This document shows, one piece after another, positions 20,939 to 38,626 of a stretch of DNA of 64,000 nt. This DNA is from Sulfurovum sp. NBC37-1 (GTDB taxonomy: Bacteria > Campylobacterota > Campylobacteria > Campylobacterales > Sulfurovaceae): the NCBI RefSeq assembly GCF_000010345.1, contig NC_009663.1, positions 1,240,001 through 1,304,000 on the forward strand, in the 5' to 3' direction. How positions within the stretch are numbered: the stretch's first letter is position 1; every line of letters starts with the position of its first letter. The notes beneath the pieces are model-generated. The model was not told the origin of the DNA, made no database searches, and saw only the letters and a list, made by a program, of their open reading frames with translations. The position numbers and the translations under genes were made by a program.

Positions 20939-21724
20939 TTAATTTCGTACAATGAATGCCCCAGACATATCGTTACAGTTTTTAAAGTCTCGTGCTTCAT
21001 CCTCTGAGCTGAAGCCCATCAGCCATACACGATAGAGCGGCGCACCGTTCACATCCGCGAACTTTTTGATGACCGTCTTGTACTTCGGATAGCGTCCGGC
21101 ATATTTCTCCCGGTAAATCTTCGCACCTTCATAGCGTCTGAACGCACCCACCTGTACACCGAAGTTCGTCAGTTTCACGCGTGCTTCGGTGTTGGTCCTG
21201 CGCGCTTTTGCAATGGCGGCATCAGACTGCACTTTCCCGGCGAACCCGACCACCTCTATCTGTACTTTGGCAATCCCCAATCTGTCAAGCCCGATCTCTT
21301 TTCCCGCTTTATAGGAACAGTCTATGATACGTCCTCTCACGAACGGCCCCCTGTCATTGACGCGGACGATCGTGTTCTTGCCGTTCTGCAGGTTGTGTAC
21401 CCTGACCATCGTGTCCATCGGCCAGGTCTTGTGCGCAGCTGTTCTGGCATACATATTGTAACGTTCACCATTACTGGTGTATTTGCCGTGAAAATTGGGC
21501 CCGTACCAACTCGAGATACCATTCATTTTCTGCCCTACTTTTACATAGGTGGGATTATAACGCTTCCCCCGTACCGTATAACAACGCATAGTAGACTTCT
21601 GTCTTGCCGCTGACGTATGACCTGACGCCTTGTATATCCGCTGTTTTTTACTTGCACATCCCGTAAACAACATGGTCGAAAATATGAAAACCGCAAGCAG
21701 CAGAAGTGTGGAAGATCGTCTCAA
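20939..21724 (-). CDS. rlpA: RlpA-like lytic transglycosylase lipoprotein
   Basis: This 261 aa outer-membrane lipoprotein has a lipobox (MLFTGC), a double-psi beta-barrel domain and a C-terminal SPOR domain. The barrel shows GISSWYGPNFHGKYTSNGE, with the substrate-binding and catalytic region, and VRVNDRGPFVRGRIIDCS, with the catalytic Asp. The SPOR domain (about residues 185-258) would bind denuded glycan strands at the septum. RlpA cleaves glycan strands lacking stem peptides, so it is linked to cell separation and to wall turnover with MltD next door. Confidence 0.9.
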   Translation of the reverse strand: MRRSSTLLLLAVFIFSTMLFTGCASKKQRIYKASGHTSAARQKSTMRCYTVRGKRYNPTYVKVGQKMNGISSWYGPNFHGKYTSNGERYNMYARTAAHKTWPMDTMVRVHNLQNGKNTIVRVNDRGPFVRGRIIDCSYKAGKEIGLDRLGIAKVQIEVVGFAGKVQSDAAIAKARRTNTEARVKLTNFGVQVGAFRRYEGAKIYREKYAGRYPKYKTVIKKFADVNGAPLYRVWLMGFSSEDEARDFKNCNDMSGAFIVRN

Positions 21725-21785: not shown

Positions 21786-22883
21786 CTAACGTGTCTGGAG
21801 CATCTTTTCAAAGGTTTCCCTGCTGACTGGTACAAGCAGAATAGAATCGAGTTCAAGAAAATCGTCTTCGAGTTTGTTGGCTGCCCTGATCTCTTCTACG
21901 GAACTGTGGTATTGTTCGGCAATACTCTGCAGTGTGTCCCTCATTTGAACGACATGGGAGACTAGATTGGGTTTGAAGCTTTTTTTCTCCTCTTTCAGTT
22001 CATATTTGAGATAGAAAAGTATCATCTTCTCTTCGGGGATCATCAAAGTATACAATGCTTTGTCCTTTGAAACTATACCTTTTTTGAACTGTCTGTTCAA
22101 GCTGAGAAGTTCCCGGGGTTTCATCTTCAGCATTTCAGCCAGTCTTCCCAGGTCAGTACCTCCCGATATTTCGACACGGTACAGCTTTTCATCGCTTCGT
22201 TCAGGGTTTGCAGAAAAATCGATGAATTTCCCTTCGCCTATCATCGCGGCAAGCAGAATCTTGCGTATGTAATTTCTTGTCTCTTTGGGCAGGTACCTGT
22301 CTCTTTCATCGGTCAGAATTTCCAGATCATCACTGCCTGCCAGTCTGATGGCTTTACGAAGACGCCCTTCACCGCAGTTATAGGCGATCACAGCAAGATA
22401 CCATTTGCCGAACTGTTCATGCAGTTTGCCAAGATAATCGATCGCTGCACTTGTGGCAGAGACAGGATCGCAGCGCTCATCAAAACCGTTACAGACTTCC
22501 AGTTTATAGTGCTGGGCTGTAGCAGGCATGAACTGCCAAAGTCCTACCGCCTTTTTTGACGAGACGATATCGGTGGAAAATCCTGATTCTACCATGGAGA
22601 TGTAGATGAAAAGATCGGACAACCCCTGGTCCATCAGGTAGCCTCTGACCATGGGAGAGAGTATCTCTCCTCTTTGCATGGAACGTTTGTAAAAACGTGT
22701 TATCTTTTTCTCGTTCTTATTAACAAAAGCTTCAAAGTCCTCATTGTCGATGTAGGACTCATCCACATCGAACTCTGAAAAAACATAACTGTAAACGGGG
22801 TATTTCTCGGCGAGCGAAGTAGAGAACAAAGCTGTCTGTATCAGTAACAACAGAAAGATGATACTTTTAAACGCTCTGTGCAT
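21786..22883 (-). CDS. mltD: Membrane-bound lytic murein transglycosylase D
   Basis: This 365 aa secreted protein has a signal peptide (about residues 1-25), a family-1 SLT lytic transglycosylase domain and one C-terminal LysM domain. The catalytic Glu is in ISMVESGFSTD, followed by AVGLWQFMPATAQ and the AYNCGEGRLRKAI motif. The LysM stretch (about residues 315-358) would bind peptidoglycan. It would release 1,6-anhydro-MurNAc muropeptides, the substrate class handled by the anmK/amgK/murU cluster at 31554-34688. Confidence 0.9.
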   Translation of the reverse strand: MHRAFKSIIFLLLLIQTALFSTSLAEKYPVYSYVFSEFDVDESYIDNEDFEAFVNKNEKKITRFYKRSMQRGEILSPMVRGYLMDQGLSDLFIYISMVESGFSTDIVSSKKAVGLWQFMPATAQHYKLEVCNGFDERCDPVSATSAAIDYLGKLHEQFGKWYLAVIAYNCGEGRLRKAIRLAGSDDLEILTDERDRYLPKETRNYIRKILLAAMIGEGKFIDFSANPERSDEKLYRVEISGGTDLGRLAEMLKMKPRELLSLNRQFKKGIVSKDKALYTLMIPEEKMILFYLKYELKEEKKSFKPNLVSHVVQMRDTLQSIAEQYHSSVEEIRAANKLEDDFLELDSILLVPVSRETFEKMLQTR

Positions 22884-30333: not shown

Positions 30334-31152
30334 ATGAAACCCATCTATATTACAGACCTTGACCATACCTTTCTGCGTACAGACCTGAGCCTTAGTCCCT
30401 ATAGCATCGAAACATGGAACATGAAAGCAGAACATGCCCTCATGGGCATTGCTACTGCCCGAAGTTTCACCAAAGCGAAGGAGCTGCTGATCCAACTGCA
30501 AATCAATGCCCCCATGATCCTGCTGGACGGTTCCATTATCGTAACTCCGGAACAGGAGATCATAGACATCAAGACCATCGGGAAAACACTGGGAGATGCT
30601 ATTGTGGAAGTGGGCATAGCACATGATATTGACCCCTTCATTATCGGGGTGAAGGACAGTGATATCAATGAATCTTTTTTATACCCAAGAAAGCTCAATG
30701 ATTATCAACGTGATGTGCTCAAAGGCTACAAGGATGATCCGCGTATGCAGTTCAACCCTGACAACAGAACCATGGAACAGAACCTGAAGATCGTCTACTT
30801 CGGGTATGAAGCACAGCTGAGACCGCTTTATGAAGCACTTAAAAATACGTTTGGAAATGAGATAGAAGCGAAACTCTCTCCAGAGAAATACGGCGGAGGC
30901 TGGTTCCTCACCCTACTGCATCCCGAAGGGGACAAGGCCCATGCACTCAAAAAGGTCATGGAGTATCTCGAACGTGACCCTTCCGATGTCACAGTCTTCG
31001 GCGACTCGGTAAATGACATCGGTATGTTCAAACTTGCCGGTACTTCAGTGGCGGTCTCGAACGCGTTGGATGAAGTTAAGAGTGTTGCAGATATCGTCCT
31101 GCCCCACCGCAACGACGAGGATGCCGTGGCGAAATACCTGGCAGGAGTGTAG
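30334..31152 (+). CDS. Cof-type HAD-superfamily phosphatase
   Basis: This 272 aa HAD hydrolase has a C2B-type cap. Motif I is ITDLDHTFLRTDLSLS, with the nucleophilic Asp and Asp+2. Motif II is the Thr in GIATARSF, motif III is Lys935-equivalent in EGDKAHALKKVM, and motif IV is GDSVNDIGMF. Cof-type enzymes dephosphorylate sugar phosphates and cofactors such as pyridoxal phosphate or FMN. Its end is six bases from the convergent lipoprotein gene, and murU lies just beyond. A role on amino-sugar phosphates is possible but unproven. Confidence 0.85.
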   Translation: MKPIYITDLDHTFLRTDLSLSPYSIETWNMKAEHALMGIATARSFTKAKELLIQLQINAPMILLDGSIIVTPEQEIIDIKTIGKTLGDAIVEVGIAHDIDPFIIGVKDSDINESFLYPRKLNDYQRDVLKGYKDDPRMQFNPDNRTMEQNLKIVYFGYEAQLRPLYEALKNTFGNEIEAKLSPEKYGGGWFLTLLHPEGDKAHALKKVMEYLERDPSDVTVFGDSVNDIGMFKLAGTSVAVSNALDEVKSVADIVLPHRNDEDAVAKYLAGV

Positions 31153-31553: not shown

Positions 31554-32222
31554 TTAGTTACTATTGAAAAGCTGTGCGTTCAGAAGTTCCAGCCTTTCAG
31601 GCGTACCGATGTCAAGCCATTCACCCTCATAAAGCTCGCCGGTAATCCTTCCCTCTTTCATGGCTGCTTTGAGAAGCGGGACGATACTGTGTTTCCCATA
31701 GGGAACACCTTCGAAGAGTTTCGGAGAGTAGTAGCCGATACCCGCGAAGGTATACTCTTTGGCATCGACCACTTTTCCCTCGAGCAGGGCAAAGTCTCCT
31801 TCGGGATTGTGCTCGGGGTTGGGTACCAGCACAAGATGCGCCAGTATGCCCTCACCCAGTTTCATTTTGCAGTTAAAATCATAATCAGTGAAGATATCGC
31901 CATTGACGACAAGAAAAATCTCATCACCAAACAGCGGCAAGGCCTTAACGATCCCTCCACCGCTTTCCAGACATCCCTCTTCCTGTTCATCGGAGTAGCT
32001 GATCTTAACACCCCATTCGGAACCATCACCCAAAGCCTCGATGATCTTGTAACCCAGGTGCGCCACATTGATGACGATCTCCCTGAAGCCATCATGCTCA
32101 AGACGCTCAAGGTGCCAAACGATAAGGGGAATACCTCCTACCTCCAAAAGCGGTTTAGGGGTATGGTCCGTCAAAGGACGCATACGTGTTCCAAGCCCCG
32201 CTGCGAGTATCATTGCTTTCAT
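31554..32222 (-). CDS. murU: N-acetylmuramate alpha-1-phosphate uridylyltransferase
   Basis: This 222 aa nucleotidyltransferase starts with MILAAGLGTRMRPLTDHTPKPLL, the signature of sugar-1-phosphate nucleotidylyltransferases. NGDIFTDYDF is the metal-binding NGD motif. Length and the compact single-domain form match MurU of Pseudomonas, which converts MurNAc-1-P and UTP to UDP-MurNAc. The adjacent amgK (MurNAc 1-kinase) and anmK support this over glucose-1-phosphate transferases. AAAGGATG precedes the ATG at 32222. Confidence 0.83.
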   Translation of the reverse strand: MKAMILAAGLGTRMRPLTDHTPKPLLEVGGIPLIVWHLERLEHDGFREIVINVAHLGYKIIEALGDGSEWGVKISYSDEQEEGCLESGGGIVKALPLFGDEIFLVVNGDIFTDYDFNCKMKLGEGILAHLVLVPNPEHNPEGDFALLEGKVVDAKEYTFAGIGYYSPKLFEGVPYGKHSIVPLLKAAMKEGRITGELYEGEWLDIGTPERLELLNAQLFNSN

Positions 32223-32284
32223 ATATAAACATCCTTTCGGTGCGTGCCGCGCACCTTTTCCATTAATCACGCAAATCGTGCCTT

Positions 32285-32436
32285 GTCATCTCGAACGACA
32301 TTGCACCCCACTTACGCTTTAGCGACAGGGGTATCGGAATTTAGTGCCAGAAAAGCGAAGCGATTCGAGAGAGATGACGATTTTTTGCTTCGTTTTTTCT
32401 AAAAAAATGAAGAGAGTACTCACTTGCAATCTAAGA
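32285..32436. repeat. Palindromic repeat element, copy A
   Basis: This repeat lies between murU and amgK. GTCATCTC (32285-32292) pairs with GAGATGAC (32371-32378). The right part includes AAAGCGAAGCGATTCGAGA, then CGATTTTTTGCTTCG with a T-run, and the tail AAAAAAATGAAGAGAGTA. These last segments are nearly identical to copy B at 33424-33570, whereas the stem bases differ but still pair. No gene is seen in 32223-32459. Confidence 0.7.
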
Positions 32437-32459
32437 TGCAAATCATCTTCTCCATCAAA

Positions 32460-33407
32460 TCATACTATTGCTTCTAACATTTTAGCAAAACTTAGAGTCT
32501 CCGGATACCTGGAAGCCGTTTCCAGCACATACTTCAAAGTCAGCGGTATATCCTTCAGATACCCATCTTTCCCGTCTCTCAGAGAAAGCCGCGAGAAGAT
32601 CCCCAGTACCTTGATATGCCGCTGCAGGCCCATAAAGTAGAAGCACTTCAAAAATGCTGCATCATCTACTTTTAATCCTGCCTGGTCTCTATAATACAGA
32701 GCCAACTCTTCCACCGCCTCCTTAGGCCATTCGATATAACAGTCTTTTAGAAGGGAGACCAGATCATAGGTGACCGCCCCTGCTCTTGCATCCTGAAAAT
32801 CAATCACACCCACTTCGTTGCCGGGTATCAGCATAATATTCCTTGAATGGTAATCACGGTGCACGAAAACACCCTGCGGCTGTTCCAGTACCGTGTCAAC
32901 TATAATATCCAGCGTCTCTCTGATGATTTTCTGCTGATCTTCAGAAATTAATATTTGTAAATATTTATTGAGGTACCACTCCTCCATCAGATCCATTTCA
33001 AATAGAAGGAACGTTCTATCGTACAGAGGCAACCCCTCTGTGTCTGCCCTCTGCATTTTGACGATCTCATCGATGGCTTTCATATAAAGTTCACGATAAT
33101 TGTCCTCATTCAGCACATCGAGATAATGTGTACTGCCGAAGTCTTCAAGTATCAGGTATCCTGATTTAATATTTTTTACTATGATAGAAGGTACATGTAC
33201 ATCAACTGCACTAAGTCTTTCATTCATCTCTACGAAAGGAGGCAGGCTTTCAGGCATCAAAGAACTGTCCATAAGGATAAACGTCTCAGCATGACGTTGT
33301 CTTTTAAGCCTGTAGTAGGACCTGAAACTTGCATCGGCTGAAGCCACTTCGATCTCCCAGTCCCCCCAGCCGATACTCTCGAGCCATACTTTTATATTTT
33401 CATTCAT
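32460..33407 (-). CDS. amgK: N-acetylmuramate/N-acetylglucosamine kinase (AmgK-like)
   Basis: This 315 aa aminoglycoside-phosphotransferase-fold kinase has its catalytic loop in HRDYHSRNIML and its metal-binding Asp in GVIDFQDARAG. These match AmgK, the anomeric kinase that makes MurNAc-1-P in the cell-wall recycling bypass of MurA. Neighbouring murU and anmK give strong contextual support. The N-terminus has WLESIGWGDWEIEVASADASFRSY in family style, split here only by reading. Copies of the same palindromic repeat flank the gene on both sides. Confidence 0.82.
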   Translation of the reverse strand: MNENIKVWLESIGWGDWEIEVASADASFRSYYRLKRQRHAETFILMDSSLMPESLPPFVEMNERLSAVDVHVPSIIVKNIKSGYLILEDFGSTHYLDVLNEDNYRELYMKAIDEIVKMQRADTEGLPLYDRTFLLFEMDLMEEWYLNKYLQILISEDQQKIIRETLDIIVDTVLEQPQGVFVHRDYHSRNIMLIPGNEVGVIDFQDARAGAVTYDLVSLLKDCYIEWPKEAVEELALYYRDQAGLKVDDAAFLKCFYFMGLQRHIKVLGIFSRLSLRDGKDGYLKDIPLTLKYVLETASRYPETLSFAKMLEAIV

Positions 33408-33423
33408 TAAATTGCTCTTCCCT

Positions 33424-33570
33424 GTCGTGGTGAACGCCCTTGAAAGCGAAGCGATTCGAGAACCACGACGATTTTTTGCTTCGTTTTTTCTCTTGTGAAG
33501 TGAAACGGTGACGCAGTCATCACTCTCTTTGAGAAAAAAATGAAGAGAGTACTCACTTGAAATCTATGAT
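33424..33570. repeat. Palindromic repeat element, copy B
   Basis: This repeat lies between amgK and anmK. GTCGTGGT (33424-33431) pairs with ACCACGAC (33462-33469). Flanking and loop blocks are identical to copy A (AAAGCGAAGCGATTCGAGA; CGATTTTTTGCTTCG; AAAAAAATGAAGAGAGTA). A 42-base insertion containing TGAC-GCA-GTCA separates the T-run from the tail. The stem has changed on both arms relative to copy A. Confidence 0.7.
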
Positions 33571-33608
33571 GATAGTGAATATTTTTACACAATAAAAGTA
33601 AATATTGA

Positions 33609-34688
33609 CTATACATAGACACCTCCAAGAATGGCATTCTGCCTTGCTCCCGTCACATCTTTGAGATCCACGTGTTCATTGTGCAGACGTTTGTACGCCA
33701 GCCAGGCGAAGGTCATCGCTTCTATATTGTCGGCATCGTTGGCTATACCTATCTGAATGTTGGGCATCAGTGTACCAAGCCGTTCTACAAGAAAAGCGTT
33801 CTTTGCTCCTCCCCCGCAGAGCAGCAGGATATCCTGATTGAATTTCAGAACTTCATTGGAGATGCTGACGGCAGTCAGTTCCAACAATGTACGCTGTACA
33901 TCGTGAGCGTTGAGCGTTGAGTGCTGAGCGTTAAGATGTTTTTGAAGCCATGCTTCGTTGAATTTCTCCCTTCCTGTACTCTTGGGGTGAGGCTGAGAAA
34001 AATAGGGATCTTCCAGCATTGCTTCTAAAAGTGGGTAGATCACCTCTCCGCTTCGTGCCCATTCACCGTTTCTGTCATAAGTAACATCTTTATGCTCTGC
34101 GACCCACATATCCATAAGCACGTTTCCCGGGCCTGTATCGTAGCCCAAGAGCGTTTTCCCCAGAACGGTGATGTTTGCCATACCCCCGATGTTCAAAATG
34201 CTCACCGAGGCATCTGTGCCCCCAAAAAGAAAGGCATGGAAGGCCGGAGCGAAAGGTGCCCCCTGCCCTCCAAGCGCCATATCCTTTTGCCTGAAATCCG
34301 CTACGACTTTGATGCCGGTCCTCACCGCGATAGCAGAGGGGTCCCCCAGCTGCATGGAGAAGGGATACTTCCCTACAGGTTCATGCCAGAGCGTCTGTCC
34401 GTGCGAACCGATGGCTTTGATACTTTTGGGATCTATCTTCTCTATCTCCAGCAGGGCATTGACCGCATCGGAGAAAAGTATTCCCAGTCTAACATCCACA
34501 CTGCCCACCTGAGCCAAAGTGCATTTGCCGTTGATCATGGAGAGTATCTCCTTTTTCAGATCATCGGGGAACGGATATTCGACAGATGCTTTGAGCAGGC
34601 AGGACTTCTTGTCTATTTCACACAGTACCACATCCACGCCATCCAGTGATGTACCCGACATAATACCGATATAACGTTCTTTATTCAT
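33609..34688 (-). CDS. anmK: Anhydro-N-acetylmuramic acid kinase
   Basis: AnmK hydrolyses the 1,6-anhydro ring and phosphorylates anhMurNAc to MurNAc-6-P during peptidoglycan recycling. The N-terminal IGIMSGTSLDGVDVVL, GSHGQTLWHEP and the central LNIGGMANITVLG and GYDTGPGNVLMD are diagnostic of the family. Length is 359 aa from the ATG at 34688, which has AGGAAAGTC upstream. A longer frame to 34727 lacks family residues. It is the first gene of the minus-strand anmK-amgK-murU set. Confidence 0.93.
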   Translation of the reverse strand: MNKERYIGIMSGTSLDGVDVVLCEIDKKSCLLKASVEYPFPDDLKKEILSMINGKCTLAQVGSVDVRLGILFSDAVNALLEIEKIDPKSIKAIGSHGQTLWHEPVGKYPFSMQLGDPSAIAVRTGIKVVADFRQKDMALGGQGAPFAPAFHAFLFGGTDASVSILNIGGMANITVLGKTLLGYDTGPGNVLMDMWVAEHKDVTYDRNGEWARSGEVIYPLLEAMLEDPYFSQPHPKSTGREKFNEAWLQKHLNAQHSTLNAHDVQRTLLELTAVSISNEVLKFNQDILLLCGGGAKNAFLVERLGTLMPNIQIGIANDADNIEAMTFAWLAYKRLHNEHVDLKDVTGARQNAILGGVYV

Positions 34689-34822
34689 GACTTTCCTGTA
34701 TACGGATTTGAAACTGTATTTTATCATACTTTAGGAACTTCTCCACGATTGCTCCACTATGGCATCACAAAGCCTCCACAAACTTATTTTATCATGCCCT
34801 ATTACAATCAAAGGAGTCATCA

Positions 34823-35410
34823 ATGACACGTAAAATTTTAAAAATGCTAACTCTGATGGGTTTGGCTTTAATTTCCACTATACTGCTTGAAGCAAAGCCT
34901 CAGCCCATGAGTGAAGTCAAAATACAACAACTCGACAGACAACTGACACAGCAGAAAGCAAAACACCGTAAATTCCAAACAAAAGAAGAGTTCAAACGGC
35001 ACAGAAGATATTTAAACAATGTACATCATCCAAAACAATACCATCACAGTAACAGTCCTTCCCGTTATAATCATCCTACAGGGGCAAGGTATAAACAGAA
35101 ACAGCGCTATACTGAACGTTATTCCGAAGTTTTCTATGGTATCCCCAGAGACAACAATACACAATACGAACACGGACATAGACACTTTAAACGGGGATGG
35201 GTTCTCGCATACCGCTATGACAGAGCCGCCTTTTACGACCAAAACGGCTTTTACTATGGTTATTTTAACCGCTACGGATACTATTTTGAAGGTGTTTTTT
35301 ACCGATACGACCGTTTTTACGGCTACCATGACCGTCTAAAAGGAAAAGGCCTCTTTGACCGCTACTTCTACCGTCCAGCAGACTGGAGGTACTACGGATT
35401 TTGCAGATAG
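34823..35410 (+). CDS. Secreted Tyr/His/Arg-rich protein of unknown function
   Basis: This 195 aa protein has a signal peptide (about residues 1-24, ending ILLEAK), then a basic, Gln-rich helical stretch. The C-terminal half is extraordinarily rich in Tyr and Phe (FYYGYFNRYGYYFEG, FYRYDRFYGYHDR). AAAGGAG precedes the ATG. No enzymatic motif is visible. The alternating aromatic and basic residues suggest a surface, nucleic-acid- or glycan-binding or matrix-like protein. It stands alone on the plus strand between anmK and the symporter gene. Confidence 0.6.
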   Translation: MTRKILKMLTLMGLALISTILLEAKPQPMSEVKIQQLDRQLTQQKAKHRKFQTKEEFKRHRRYLNNVHHPKQYHHSNSPSRYNHPTGARYKQKQRYTERYSEVFYGIPRDNNTQYEHGHRHFKRGWVLAYRYDRAAFYDQNGFYYGYFNRYGYYFEGVFYRYDRFYGYHDRLKGKGLFDRYFYRPADWRYYGFCR

Positions 35411-35507
35411 TCCCACCTAAAAATCGGAACCAATAATGGCTTTAGTCCCGGCTGCTTTACAACAATTCACAGAATACATTGTGACAAAGTAGTCGTCAAA
35501 ATCCAAT

Positions 35508-37034
35508 CTATGTATTTTGATTAACTATGTCGTGATCTTTTGCACCCATCATGATCCCGAATGCCACGATCGTACCTATGAGTATCTGCCAGGCAAATCC
35601 CAGTTTGAAGTCAAATGCGGCACCAAGTACATAGGGCTGAAGAAGAAGCACGGTCATAAAACCGCCTATCAGAGAAAGCGGTACGGTTGTTGCACTGCCG
35701 CGTTTGGTAAATATGGCCGCAGCATAGACCCCCAACAGTCCGGTATAGGCAAAAGCCATGACACCCAGCGCAAAACTGAGCAGCGGCAGTTCGGTGTAGC
35801 GCTGCCAGTAGTAGCTGATCATCGCCATAGCTGAAAGGGCCACGGCAAATAGTAATACAGCCGCCCTGCCCGCTTTGACGAAATGCATCTCATCCACATT
35901 ACTTCTTTTGCGCTTCCAGGGTTTGTAAAGGTCTTCAATGGCCACGGAGGACATGGCACCCAATACGGAGTTGGAAGAAGAGAGGGCCGCAGCAACCGCT
36001 CCGACCGTCACCAGTCCGCGCATCCCCTCAGGCATCTCATGCAAAATATAGTACATGAATATCGTGATCTTCTCACCGTCGAATTTCTGTACCACTTCGG
36101 TATTGAGCCCAGAGAGTTCGGGATGTTGATAGAAGAGATAGAGCAACAGCCCTATACACAGGAACAGAATGGCCACGGGGATCGTCATATAGATCGAGAA
36201 CATCAGGGAGTTCTGCGCCTCTTTGGTATCTTTACAGGTCAAAGCCCGTTGCGTCATATCCTGATCCAGCCCATAGGCAGCAATGTTCAACAGCAGCCAT
36301 CCGCCAAGCAGTGCCCAGACTGAGAATCCACCGCTCAAAGACCAGTCAAGCAGTTTGAGTTTATGCTCTGTCTGCAGTGTCGAGACGATCGTACCCATAT
36401 CGGCATTCATACTCATATAGAGGTAGATCAGTACCGCAATCCCTGCCCCGATGTAGGTGACTGCCTGAATAATATCGGAAAAAATGACCGATTTTACCCC
36501 ACCAAAATAGACATAGGCCAGTGCACCCAGCATCAAAACGGCAATGGAAATGGCCACATGAGCGGCTGCAATATCCAGAAAAAGGATCATCGATATGGCC
36601 AGTGCTCCTATGTACAGCCGTGCTCCCGAAGCAAACAGGCGCCCCACAAGGAACATGACACCCGCCTGTTTCTTTGCAGATGCACCGTAACGCTTCTCAA
36701 GCAGTTCATAAACTGTCACCGCTTTAATGGCATAGAAACGGGGAATGAGCACTTTGGCCACAAACACAACAGCCAAAAAGGCAGAGAGGTAAAATCCGAT
36801 AAAGGTCAGATCTTTGCTGTAGGCGTATTCCGGGCCTCCCAGAAAGGTGGCTGCCGACTGCGAAGTGGCCAGTACCGAGATGGCTGCAGCCCACATCGGA
36901 ACGGTATTGCTTCCTACAAAATAGTCTCTGGTATTTCTGATCTTTCCTTGGCTTAAAAGAACGGATGTAACGATTAATACCAAAAAATATGAAGAAAAGA
37001 CCGCCCAGTCCAGCGTGGAGAAAGCCGAATGCAT
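35508..37034 (-). CDS. Sodium:solute symporter (SSS family)
   Basis: This 508 aa inner-membrane protein has about 13 transmembrane helices in the LeuT-like SSS fold. It shows an N-terminal DYFVGSNTVPMWAAAISVLATSQSAATFLGGPEY and the central GGVKSVIFSDIIQ segment typical of SSS transporters (shown here as family landmarks). Substrates of this family include sugars, sialic acid, proline and vitamins. The TAATG overlap with the secreted amidase gene, and the nearby anmK/amgK/murU genes, suggest import of a wall-derived sugar or muropeptide. That is inference from context. Confidence 0.85.
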   Translation of the reverse strand: MHSAFSTLDWAVFSSYFLVLIVTSVLLSQGKIRNTRDYFVGSNTVPMWAAAISVLATSQSAATFLGGPEYAYSKDLTFIGFYLSAFLAVVFVAKVLIPRFYAIKAVTVYELLEKRYGASAKKQAGVMFLVGRLFASGARLYIGALAISMILFLDIAAAHVAISIAVLMLGALAYVYFGGVKSVIFSDIIQAVTYIGAGIAVLIYLYMSMNADMGTIVSTLQTEHKLKLLDWSLSGGFSVWALLGGWLLLNIAAYGLDQDMTQRALTCKDTKEAQNSLMFSIYMTIPVAILFLCIGLLLYLFYQHPELSGLNTEVVQKFDGEKITIFMYYILHEMPEGMRGLVTVGAVAAALSSSNSVLGAMSSVAIEDLYKPWKRKRSNVDEMHFVKAGRAAVLLFAVALSAMAMISYYWQRYTELPLLSFALGVMAFAYTGLLGVYAAAIFTKRGSATTVPLSLIGGFMTVLLLQPYVLGAAFDFKLGFAWQILIGTIVAFGIMMGAKDHDIVNQNT

Positions 37035-37747
37035 TATCTGCCTCTGGGAGGCATCTTCAGATGCAGATCTTTTACATTTTTTCGTACAGCGGACATGAAC
37101 TTCCTGCCCGGGTCATTCTTGACCGTTCGGTAGCCTTTGTCCTTCTCAAGCCAGAGAGGAGTATGCTCCATCTGTCTGTACTCATAGTGGCCTATCAGGT
37201 ATTTTATAGTCGGATATTTTGCCTTGAGGTAACGCACCAGTGCGATGTTGGAGCGCAGCTGCGCAGGGGTGAGGTCTTCCGCCTTGTTCCCCTTCCCTCC
37301 AATGTTCTCAATACCGATACTCGAATAGTTCAGGCCGATGACATGACGCGCCATCCAGTTCTCCGGCATCAGACGGTAAATGGTCCCGTCACGGTCCACG
37401 AGAAACTGTGCGGAGACATTGAGCGCCGAAGCTTTGGCGATGTCTTTCCTGTCTGTCAACAGTCTTTGCGGTTTAAGCCGGTTAAAGGATTTTTTGAGGT
37501 CCATCTCCGCTGTCCAGTGCAGCACGATGATACGGGGCGTAATGGTGATGTTCTTCACTTTAAGCCCGTAATGCTGTCGTATATACGCTTTGGTCATGTT
37601 CACACGTTGCTTGCCGAAATCTATGGGCTTATCGACAATACGCAAAGGTGGCTGGATGGGTTTGGTCGTACATTTAAAGCTGTCTGCCGGCATGCTCTGC
37701 AGACCGAGTGTCAGAAACGCCAAAGCGCTTACTAAAGTTTTTGTCAT
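37034..37747 (-). CDS. Secreted N-acetylmuramoyl-L-alanine amidase (Amidase_2)
   Basis: This 237 aa protein has a signal peptide (about residues 1-22) and a type-2 amidase domain. The zinc ligands are visible: His in IVLHWTAE, His in YLIGHYEY and Asp in VKNDPGRKF. NYSSIGIENIGG is the conserved core strand. AmiD/AmpD-like enzymes cut the bond between MurNAc (or anhMurNAc) and L-Ala. A periplasmic or outer-membrane form would release free sugar and peptide outside the cytoplasm. Its stop overlaps the symporter start (TAATG). Confidence 0.85.
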   Translation of the reverse strand: MTKTLVSALAFLTLGLQSMPADSFKCTTKPIQPPLRIVDKPIDFGKQRVNMTKAYIRQHYGLKVKNITITPRIIVLHWTAEMDLKKSFNRLKPQRLLTDRKDIAKASALNVSAQFLVDRDGTIYRLMPENWMARHVIGLNYSSIGIENIGGKGNKAEDLTPAQLRSNIALVRYLKAKYPTIKYLIGHYEYRQMEHTPLWLEKDKGYRTVKNDPGRKFMSAVRKNVKDLHLKMPPRGR

Positions 37748-37773: not shown

Positions 37774-38328
37774 TTATTTTATCGAATCTTGGCTATGGTT
37801 CTCTTTGTTCCTGAGCAGGATCGTTACGATGATCACGGGAGGAATACCCAGTGCGACAATGTAGCTCGGTATATCCAGCAATCCATGCCTGTGCAGATAG
37901 AGGAATCCCAAAATGAGAACAGCATAGGCACCCAATCTGTAGAGTGACAGTGCCGCCTTTGTATCTTTGAGTACTTCAAAGGGTGTCCGTCTGTTCTCTT
38001 TGAGTTTCTTTTTTTCCTCCTTGACCGTCTGGGAAGGGTCCTTCTCCTCTTCTGATTCAAGCACCTCTTCACTGTAGAGGTCGTAGGGATCTTCGAGCTT
38101 ATCGATGACATCCTTGTCGATGTCCGTTGTGATCACTTCATTCTCAACCCTTGCGTTGACCATCCGGCGGTAGCTGAGCATCGAAGCGATCATCACGAGC
38201 GTTGCAGAGATAAAACCTATCTGAGTATTCCAGAGTGTTTTGATATCAAAAAATATTAATGAGACTCCTGTAAGAAGAATGTCTGCAATGACCAATATGA
38301 TGAAAAGTGTTTTATTAATACCTGTCAT
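37774..38328 (-). CDS. Membrane protein of unknown function downstream of AtpZ
   Basis: This protein of about 184 aa has two N-terminal transmembrane helices (about residues 5-22 and 33-50), a charged cytoplasmic middle (KLEDPYDLYSEEVLESEEEKD) and two C-terminal helices. No catalytic motif is visible. The ATG at 38328 begins the first helix and overlaps the AtpZ gene by 14 bases. Longer in-frame extension into AtpZ is out of character. The function is unknown, and coupling to AtpZ suggests a membrane-complex role. Confidence 0.6.
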   Translation of the reverse strand: MTGINKTLFIILVIADILLTGVSLIFFDIKTLWNTQIGFISATLVMIASMLSYRRMVNARVENEVITTDIDKDVIDKLEDPYDLYSEEVLESEEEKDPSQTVKEEKKKLKENRRTPFEVLKDTKAALSLYRLGAYAVLILGFLYLHRHGLLDIPSYIVALGIPPVIIVTILLRNKENHSQDSIK

Positions 38329-38626
38329 CCTCATCCTCATCATCGTCTGCCGTATATTTTCTCTGGTGTCGGTAACGCGGATCAGTCGCCAACTCATCCA
38401 GTGATCTCTTCTGCTTATCATACGCTTTGTAGACATTCAGGACTGCTGCAGCTATACCAATGAACACCCCTATCCAAAGTGTCCACATCGCACCGGTAAG
38501 TTTTTGCAACCCCAGCCCTATCGCAACACCTATCAGCACTGCCACGACCATGGAGATACCGAGGCTCAGTCCGTCAGCAGCATCTACGATCTTTTTGAAT
38601 TTTGGATCATCTTCTTTTCTTTGCAT
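38315..38626 (-). CDS. AtpZ/AtpI-family protein
   Basis: This 103 aa protein has two transmembrane helices with glycine-rich turns (GISMVVAVLIGVAIGLGL and LWIGVFIGIAAAVLNVYKA) in the arrangement of AtpZ/AtpI-type proteins. These help ATP synthase c-ring assembly or Mg/Ca uptake. An acidic tail (DDDEDEDD) ends the protein. No ATP synthase structural genes are nearby, which is usual in Campylobacterota. It overlaps the next membrane gene. Confidence 0.75.
   Translation of the reverse strand: MQRKEDDPKFKKIVDAADGLSLGISMVVAVLIGVAIGLGLQKLTGAMWTLWIGVFIGIAAAVLNVYKAYDKQKRSLDELATDPRYRHQRKYTADDDEDEDDRY

Follow-up and report, generated by a model that had tools for sequence, protein, structure and literature searches.

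Five clustered genes in the genome of Sulfurovum sp. NBC37-1 raise the question of how the muramic acid of the cell wall can be recycled without the permease AmpG, which in the textbook route of Gram-negative bacteria imports whole anhydro-muropeptides. The window analyzed here is a stretch of 64,000 nucleotides (bases 1,240,001-1,304,000) of a single-contig genome of 2,562,277 bases (100% complete), whose nearest named relatives are Sulfurovum and Sulfurimonas (Campylobacterota). An earlier note on this window had proposed a peptidoglycan-salvage locus with a symporter of the sodium:solute symporter (SSS) family in place of AmpG, and the sequence checks support that proposal. We consider it likely that the genes belong to an AmpG-free peptidoglycan-recycling cassette, in which NagZ and an amidase would act in the periplasm, the SSS protein would import anhydro-N-acetylmuramic acid (anhMurNAc), and AnmK, a phosphatase, AmgK and MurU would convert the sugar to UDP-N-acetylmuramic acid (UDP-MurNAc).

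Cassette genes and hydrolases with export signals

The five genes of the window are the following (scores in bits against Pfam or NCBIfam models):

31554..32270, minus strand: murU, MurNAc-1-phosphate uridylyltransferase (NCBIfam NF045761, 295.7 bits, cut-off 250); linked to anmK/amgK in relatives
32460..33407, minus strand: amgK, probable anomeric kinase for MurNAc/N-acetylglucosamine (GlcNAc) (NF045759, 251.5 bits; PF01636); adjoins anmK and murU in relatives
33609..34727, minus strand: anmK (PF03702, 456 bits; NF007139, 468 bits, cut-off 367)
35508..37034, minus strand: SSS-family sodium:solute symporter, proposed anhMurNAc/MurNAc importer (PF00474, 90.8 bits; best solved relative SiaT, 5nv9)
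37034..37747, minus strand: secreted Amidase_2 N-acetylmuramoyl-L-alanine amidase (PF01510, 70.9 bits; signal peptide)

All five are intact open reading frames (ORFs) lying together on the same strand, as the earlier note had described, and the TAATG overlap between the amidase stop and the symporter start, a sign of translational coupling, was confirmed in the sequence. AnmK and MurU both exceed the cut-offs of their curated models. The AmgK score is below the strict cut-off of 550 for NF045759, and the location beside murU and anmK fits the assignment. The true start of murU is probably Met17, at about 32222.

The amidase is secreted, which the note had also claimed: besides the signal peptide of the window protein, a signal peptide or lipobox was recognized by a simple rule in 27 of 31 orthologues, several of which are lipoproteins. 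Residues H77/H187/D212, E147 and K210 are invariant. The enzyme is the sole Amidase_2 protein in the complete genome, which therefore holds no cytosolic AmpD of this family. No NagZ had been visible to the earlier note, and this stands for the window; the genome does encode a single GH3 enzyme, NagZ-like, at 453.7 kb, and it carries an export signal. Its N-terminus (MKKIFLMVAVMAVTSLWAG) contains a signal peptide, the D/H motif KHFPGHGxxxxDTH is retained, and the secreted NagZ of Bacillus subtilis (YbbD) is among its best solved matches. By the same kind of simple rule, 65 of 72 scanned NagZ orthologues have a signal peptide, and the starts of those amidase and NagZ orthologues that lack an export signal are mostly cut or misjudged. 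No cytosolic GH3 NagZ was found in the complete genome. The cytosolic NagZ and AmpD that are features of AmpG-type recycling are thus missing, the sole GH3 and the sole Amidase_2 protein both having a signal peptide. Near nagZ in this genome lies a gene for an NlpC/P60-type peptidase (L038:2937-3866), possibly a further wall hydrolase of the route.

The earlier note had asked whether the genome lacks ampG and mupP; the complete genome holds no AmpG and nothing that scores above the curated MupP cut-off. No match to the AmpG model TIGR00901 was obtained at E 1e-3, a model which does find matches in E. coli, Caulobacter and Bacteroides. MurQ gave no match above its cut-off in the complete genome (best 26.7 bits vs 302, a short SIS-domain match in a 602-residue frame). 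None of the three full-length HAD_2 phosphatases of the genome reached the cut-off of 359 for MupP (NF009696); the best scored 124.5 bits, and one of the three is Gph by its own model. The Gph-like proteins were accordingly rejected as MupP, their scores falling short of that model.

Linkage and co-occurrence in relatives

The symporter was found in 41 of 48 same-genus relatives at 61-92% identity (G011 and G048 are examples of genomes without it). In Sulfurovum the amidase-symporter adjacency and a nearby anmK-amgK-murU group are usually kept where contigs permit. Sulfurimonas has a single operon of the order nagZ(-amidase)-SSS-anmK-amgK-murU-mltB. NagZ and/or the amidase is encoded upstream in 65/65 Sulfurimonas loci with at least 2.5 kb of upstream DNA, and in the 51 loci with at least 4.5 kb of downstream DNA the symporter gene is followed by anmK in 50, by amgK and murU in 47 and, 3' of murU, by a gene for an MltB-type lytic transglycosylase (SLT_2) in 39. 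NagZ and the amidase form one ORF in 40 loci, of about 540-600 residues where complete; in the two fusions that were scanned, GH3 precedes Amidase_2 behind one shared signal peptide. A contig scan for relatives of the symporter gave the best 80 of 353, all Campylobacterota by title except one titled 'bacterium'. Some Sulfurimonas operons have a DUF167/YggU-family gene between the symporter and anmK (L099:10398-10754).

These data bear on the species that is imported. The earlier note had implied in part that the amidase would leave an anhydro-disaccharide for the symporter, and because NagZ carries an export signal, anhMurNAc is the more likely cargo. Import of GlcNAc-anhMurNAc would suit an amidase working alone and the Sulfurovum arrangement, in which nagZ is not beside the symporter gene, but the export signals of NagZ, its fusion to the amidase, the lack of a cytosolic GH3 enzyme and the monosaccharide carried by SiaT, the best structural relative of the symporter, together make it very improbable.

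Co-occurrence was determined in 150 Campylobacterales genomes (at least 90% complete, 62 genera), with strong SSS matches defined by E below 1e-190. AnmK and strong SSS matches were found in the identical 12 genomes, representing 4 of the 62 genera, so that the co-occurrence which the earlier note had wanted checked was observed; identical 4-of-62 genus sets have p = 1.8e-6 if genera are assumed to be independent. AmpG-like matches in these 150 genomes were weak, confined to nine genomes and never found together with AnmK. NagZ is distributed more broadly (65 of the 150). The grouping of the cassette genes is far beyond chance, since dozens of genomes from two genera repeat it and a second class shows it together with MurQ; a chance grouping was rejected on its recurrence in about 100 loci.

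Further features lie around or between the cassette genes of the window:

34823..35410, plus strand: ORF without assigned function, between anmK and the symporter gene (no Pfam/NCBIfam match; absent or weak in many relatives)
37774..38436, minus strand: small membrane protein (no family match; position conserved)
30334..31152, plus strand: Cof-type HAD-IIB phosphatase, convergent with murU, candidate MurNAc 6-phosphate phosphatase (PF08282, 140.6 bits)
21786-22883: MltD
20939-21724: RlpA

The ORF at 34823-35410, variable in presence among relatives, is outside the conserved cassette, and because it separates anmK from the symporter gene on the opposite strand, these two probably belong to two transcription units here. 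Its product is basic, rich in Tyr and Arg and has a possible signal peptide. The small membrane protein is usually encoded directly upstream of the amidase in Sulfurovum and was not seen in Sulfurimonas. The HAD protein, which the earlier note had offered as the MurNAc 6-phosphate phosphatase, is full-length in 50 of the 150 genomes. These include all 12 with AnmK but also 38 without AnmK, and it was rejected as a specific phosphatase of the route. MltD and RlpA are where the note had placed them. Its idea that they feed the route found no linkage evidence, the transglycosylase of the relatives' operon being MltB-like, and they were not retained as cassette members.

The symporter and its probable cargo

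Membership in the SSS family is supported by the PF00474 score, far above the cut-off of 22.8, and by a LeuT-type fold. An AlphaFold model (22-sequence input, mean predicted local distance difference test score, pLDDT, 80.6) superposed on 5nva with Z 41.4 and a root-mean-square deviation of 2.7 over 467 residues, and among the structural matches of this model SiaT was closest, followed by sodium-iodide and sodium-glucose symporters. With SiaT of Proteus mirabilis (5nv9; PMC5931594) the window protein shares the fold, the Na2-site residues (A56, A349, S352 and S353, equivalent to SiaT A56, A339, S342 and S343), the Na3-site residue Asp182 and the invariant Ser60 and Thr63, which contact the carboxylate in SiaT. 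It differs in its identity of only about 26% and in lacking Arg135, the residue that bridges the sialic-acid carboxylate in SiaT (PMC5931594): this position is Ala in all 93 alignment rows, and two arginines of the same helix, R132 and R139, occur without exception in these rows. This pattern would suit an N-acetyl sugar that bears a carboxylate but is not sialic acid, a fit that falls short of proof.

Plasmid records of Sphingomonadales hold full-length relatives of the symporter with 37-48% identity; the next SSS proteins are at 26-28%. The Campylobacterota and Sphingomonadales proteins make up a single clade (100/100), separate from PutP, ActP, PanF, YidK, SiaT and SMCT1, with long outgroup branches. 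The symporter thus clusters away from the carriers of proline and acetate, a placement with which the earlier note had listed as part of what would refute its proposal, and an assignment as PutP or ActP was rejected (16-20% identity, separate branch, long branches). In Novosphingobium the sister symporter gene sits between those of a TonB receptor and MurQ, in a locus that also holds anmK, nagA, a NagB-II-like gene, a beta-N-acetylglucosaminidase gene and a D-lactate dehydrogenase gene, and Sphingopyxis and Croceicoccus have the same core. Sphingomonadales plasmids or chromids with such a MurNAc catabolic locus (L245, L246, L247, L248) apparently represent a nutrient-scavenging relative of the cassette. 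AnmK and the symporter are the element common to the anabolic (AmgK/MurU) and the catabolic (MurQ) versions, which indicates anhMurNAc, or MurNAc, as the cargo; judged from this gene content, one of these sugars is most likely carried by both clades.

The resemblance of the sister loci, with their TonB receptor and MurQ/NagA/NagB-type set, to nutrient scavenging also suggests that the Campylobacterota cassette could salvage MurNAc or anhMurNAc released when other bacteria die, instead of recycling the cell's own wall. We regard this as possible but doubtful: the Campylobacterota cassette showed no TonB receptor, its downstream route is anabolic, and the Sulfurimonas operon includes a lytic transglycosylase. 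Salvage and own-wall recycling are, moreover, not mutually exclusive.

A probable AmpG-free route and its place among known systems

In the recycling route that we favor, lytic transglycosylases would release GlcNAc-anhMurNAc-peptides, and outside the inner membrane the secreted NagZ would cleave off GlcNAc and the secreted amidase the peptide. The sugar left over, anhMurNAc (and perhaps MurNAc as well), would then enter by Na+ symport through the SSS protein. In the cytoplasm AnmK would convert anhMurNAc to MurNAc 6-phosphate, a phosphatase would yield MurNAc, and AmgK and MurU would complete the path to UDP-MurNAc. At the level of sequence, the genes, the export signals, the operon and fusion of the relatives, the missing AmpG, MurQ and second Amidase_2 protein, and the co-occurrence are established; what we infer is the transport step, with its substrate and its ion, and the phosphatase.

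Several observations weigh against this route. No gene can be assigned as the MurNAc 6-phosphate phosphatase, and another phosphatase may take the step of MupP. The Arg135 position of SiaT is occupied by Ala in the symporter. A Sulfurimonas subgroup (L139-L164, e.g. L139:8886-9980) has no amidase domain next to NagZ, and one genome with AnmK (G020) shows no GH3 protein. Linked genes could co-occur merely by moving as a block, which lowers the weight of the SSS/AnmK co-occurrence; yet in G196 the symporter gene and anmK-amgK-murU lie on separate contigs and both are retained. Finally, the genome has a four-gene ATP-binding cassette (ABC) transporter locus (~196-203 kb) with Opp-type permeases and a YejF-like double ATPase (616 bits, cut-off 834) that could import muropeptides, as the AmpG-less Agrobacterium does by relying on YejBEF-YepA (PMC9790009), in which case the symporter would carry a substrate such as GlcNAc or sialic acid. 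This explanation is improbable: the genome yielded neither a cytosolic Amidase_2 enzyme nor a cytosolic GH3 NagZ to process imported muropeptides. NCBIfam offered no match to the ABC substrate-binding protein within an E value of 1e-20, and YepA is reported from Alphaproteobacteria only (PMC9790009). The symporter, moreover, accompanies anmK in two classes of bacteria. The Opp/Yej-like transporter may instead import peptides freed by the amidase. The peptide-type ABC operon at L241:2676-9479, which encodes a binding protein, a pair of permeases and a YejF-like double ATPase and is followed by a gene for a Gph-like HAD protein, is a possible importer of these peptides.

The AmpG-free cassette is a variant of known themes. 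With the anabolic recycling of Pseudomonas putida, which uses AmpG, NagZ, AmpD, AnmK, MupP, AmgK and MurU (PMC5371407), it shares the AnmK and MurU steps to UDP-MurNAc, probably also that of AmgK, and the lack of MurQ, whereas AmpG and a curated MupP are missing, NagZ and the amidase are exported and an SSS gene is in the operon. The extracellular NagZ-AmiE route of B. subtilis with the phosphotransferase system (PTS) protein MurP (summarized in PMC6987092) places both hydrolases outside the membrane and imports the bare sugar, as is proposed here; the present system is Gram-negative, has an SSS protein rather than a PTS, uses AnmK/AmgK/MurU rather than MurQ, and shows an Amidase_2-NagZ fusion in relatives. 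An SSS transporter for MurNAc is already known: MurT of Tannerella forsythia (PMC5790795, PMC7670621) is similar, by description rather than sequence, in being a sodium symporter family protein for a muramic acid sugar, but it adjoins murK-murQ in a MurNAc auxotroph with AmpG and without AnmK. The route proposed for Rhodothermus marinus (PMC6987092) also has periplasmic NagZ and AnmK inside, without AmpG or AmpD; its transporter was not named, whereas here a specific symporter is linked to the route. Agrobacterium too recycles without AmpG, its place being taken by the ABC importer YejBEF-YepA (PMC9790009), which imports whole muropeptides for NagZ and AmpD inside the cell. In the open literature we found no paper that names an anhMurNAc importer or describes this cassette.

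The symporter is a candidate transporter for free anhMurNAc, and we lean towards the view that it founds a family of dedicated Na+:anhMurNAc importers in Campylobacterota and Sphingomonadales. It would carry out the decisive step of a form of recycling that keeps all muropeptides out of the cytoplasm and in which, for that reason, the cytosolic muropeptide signaling of AmpG bacteria could not operate. If this is true, a Na+ symporter combined with periplasmic NagZ and amidase is a further solution beside AmpG, the PTS and YejBEF-YepA, the symporter is the kind of importer left unnamed in the Rhodothermus study, and the cassette shows how an environmental group of Campylobacterota recycles its wall.

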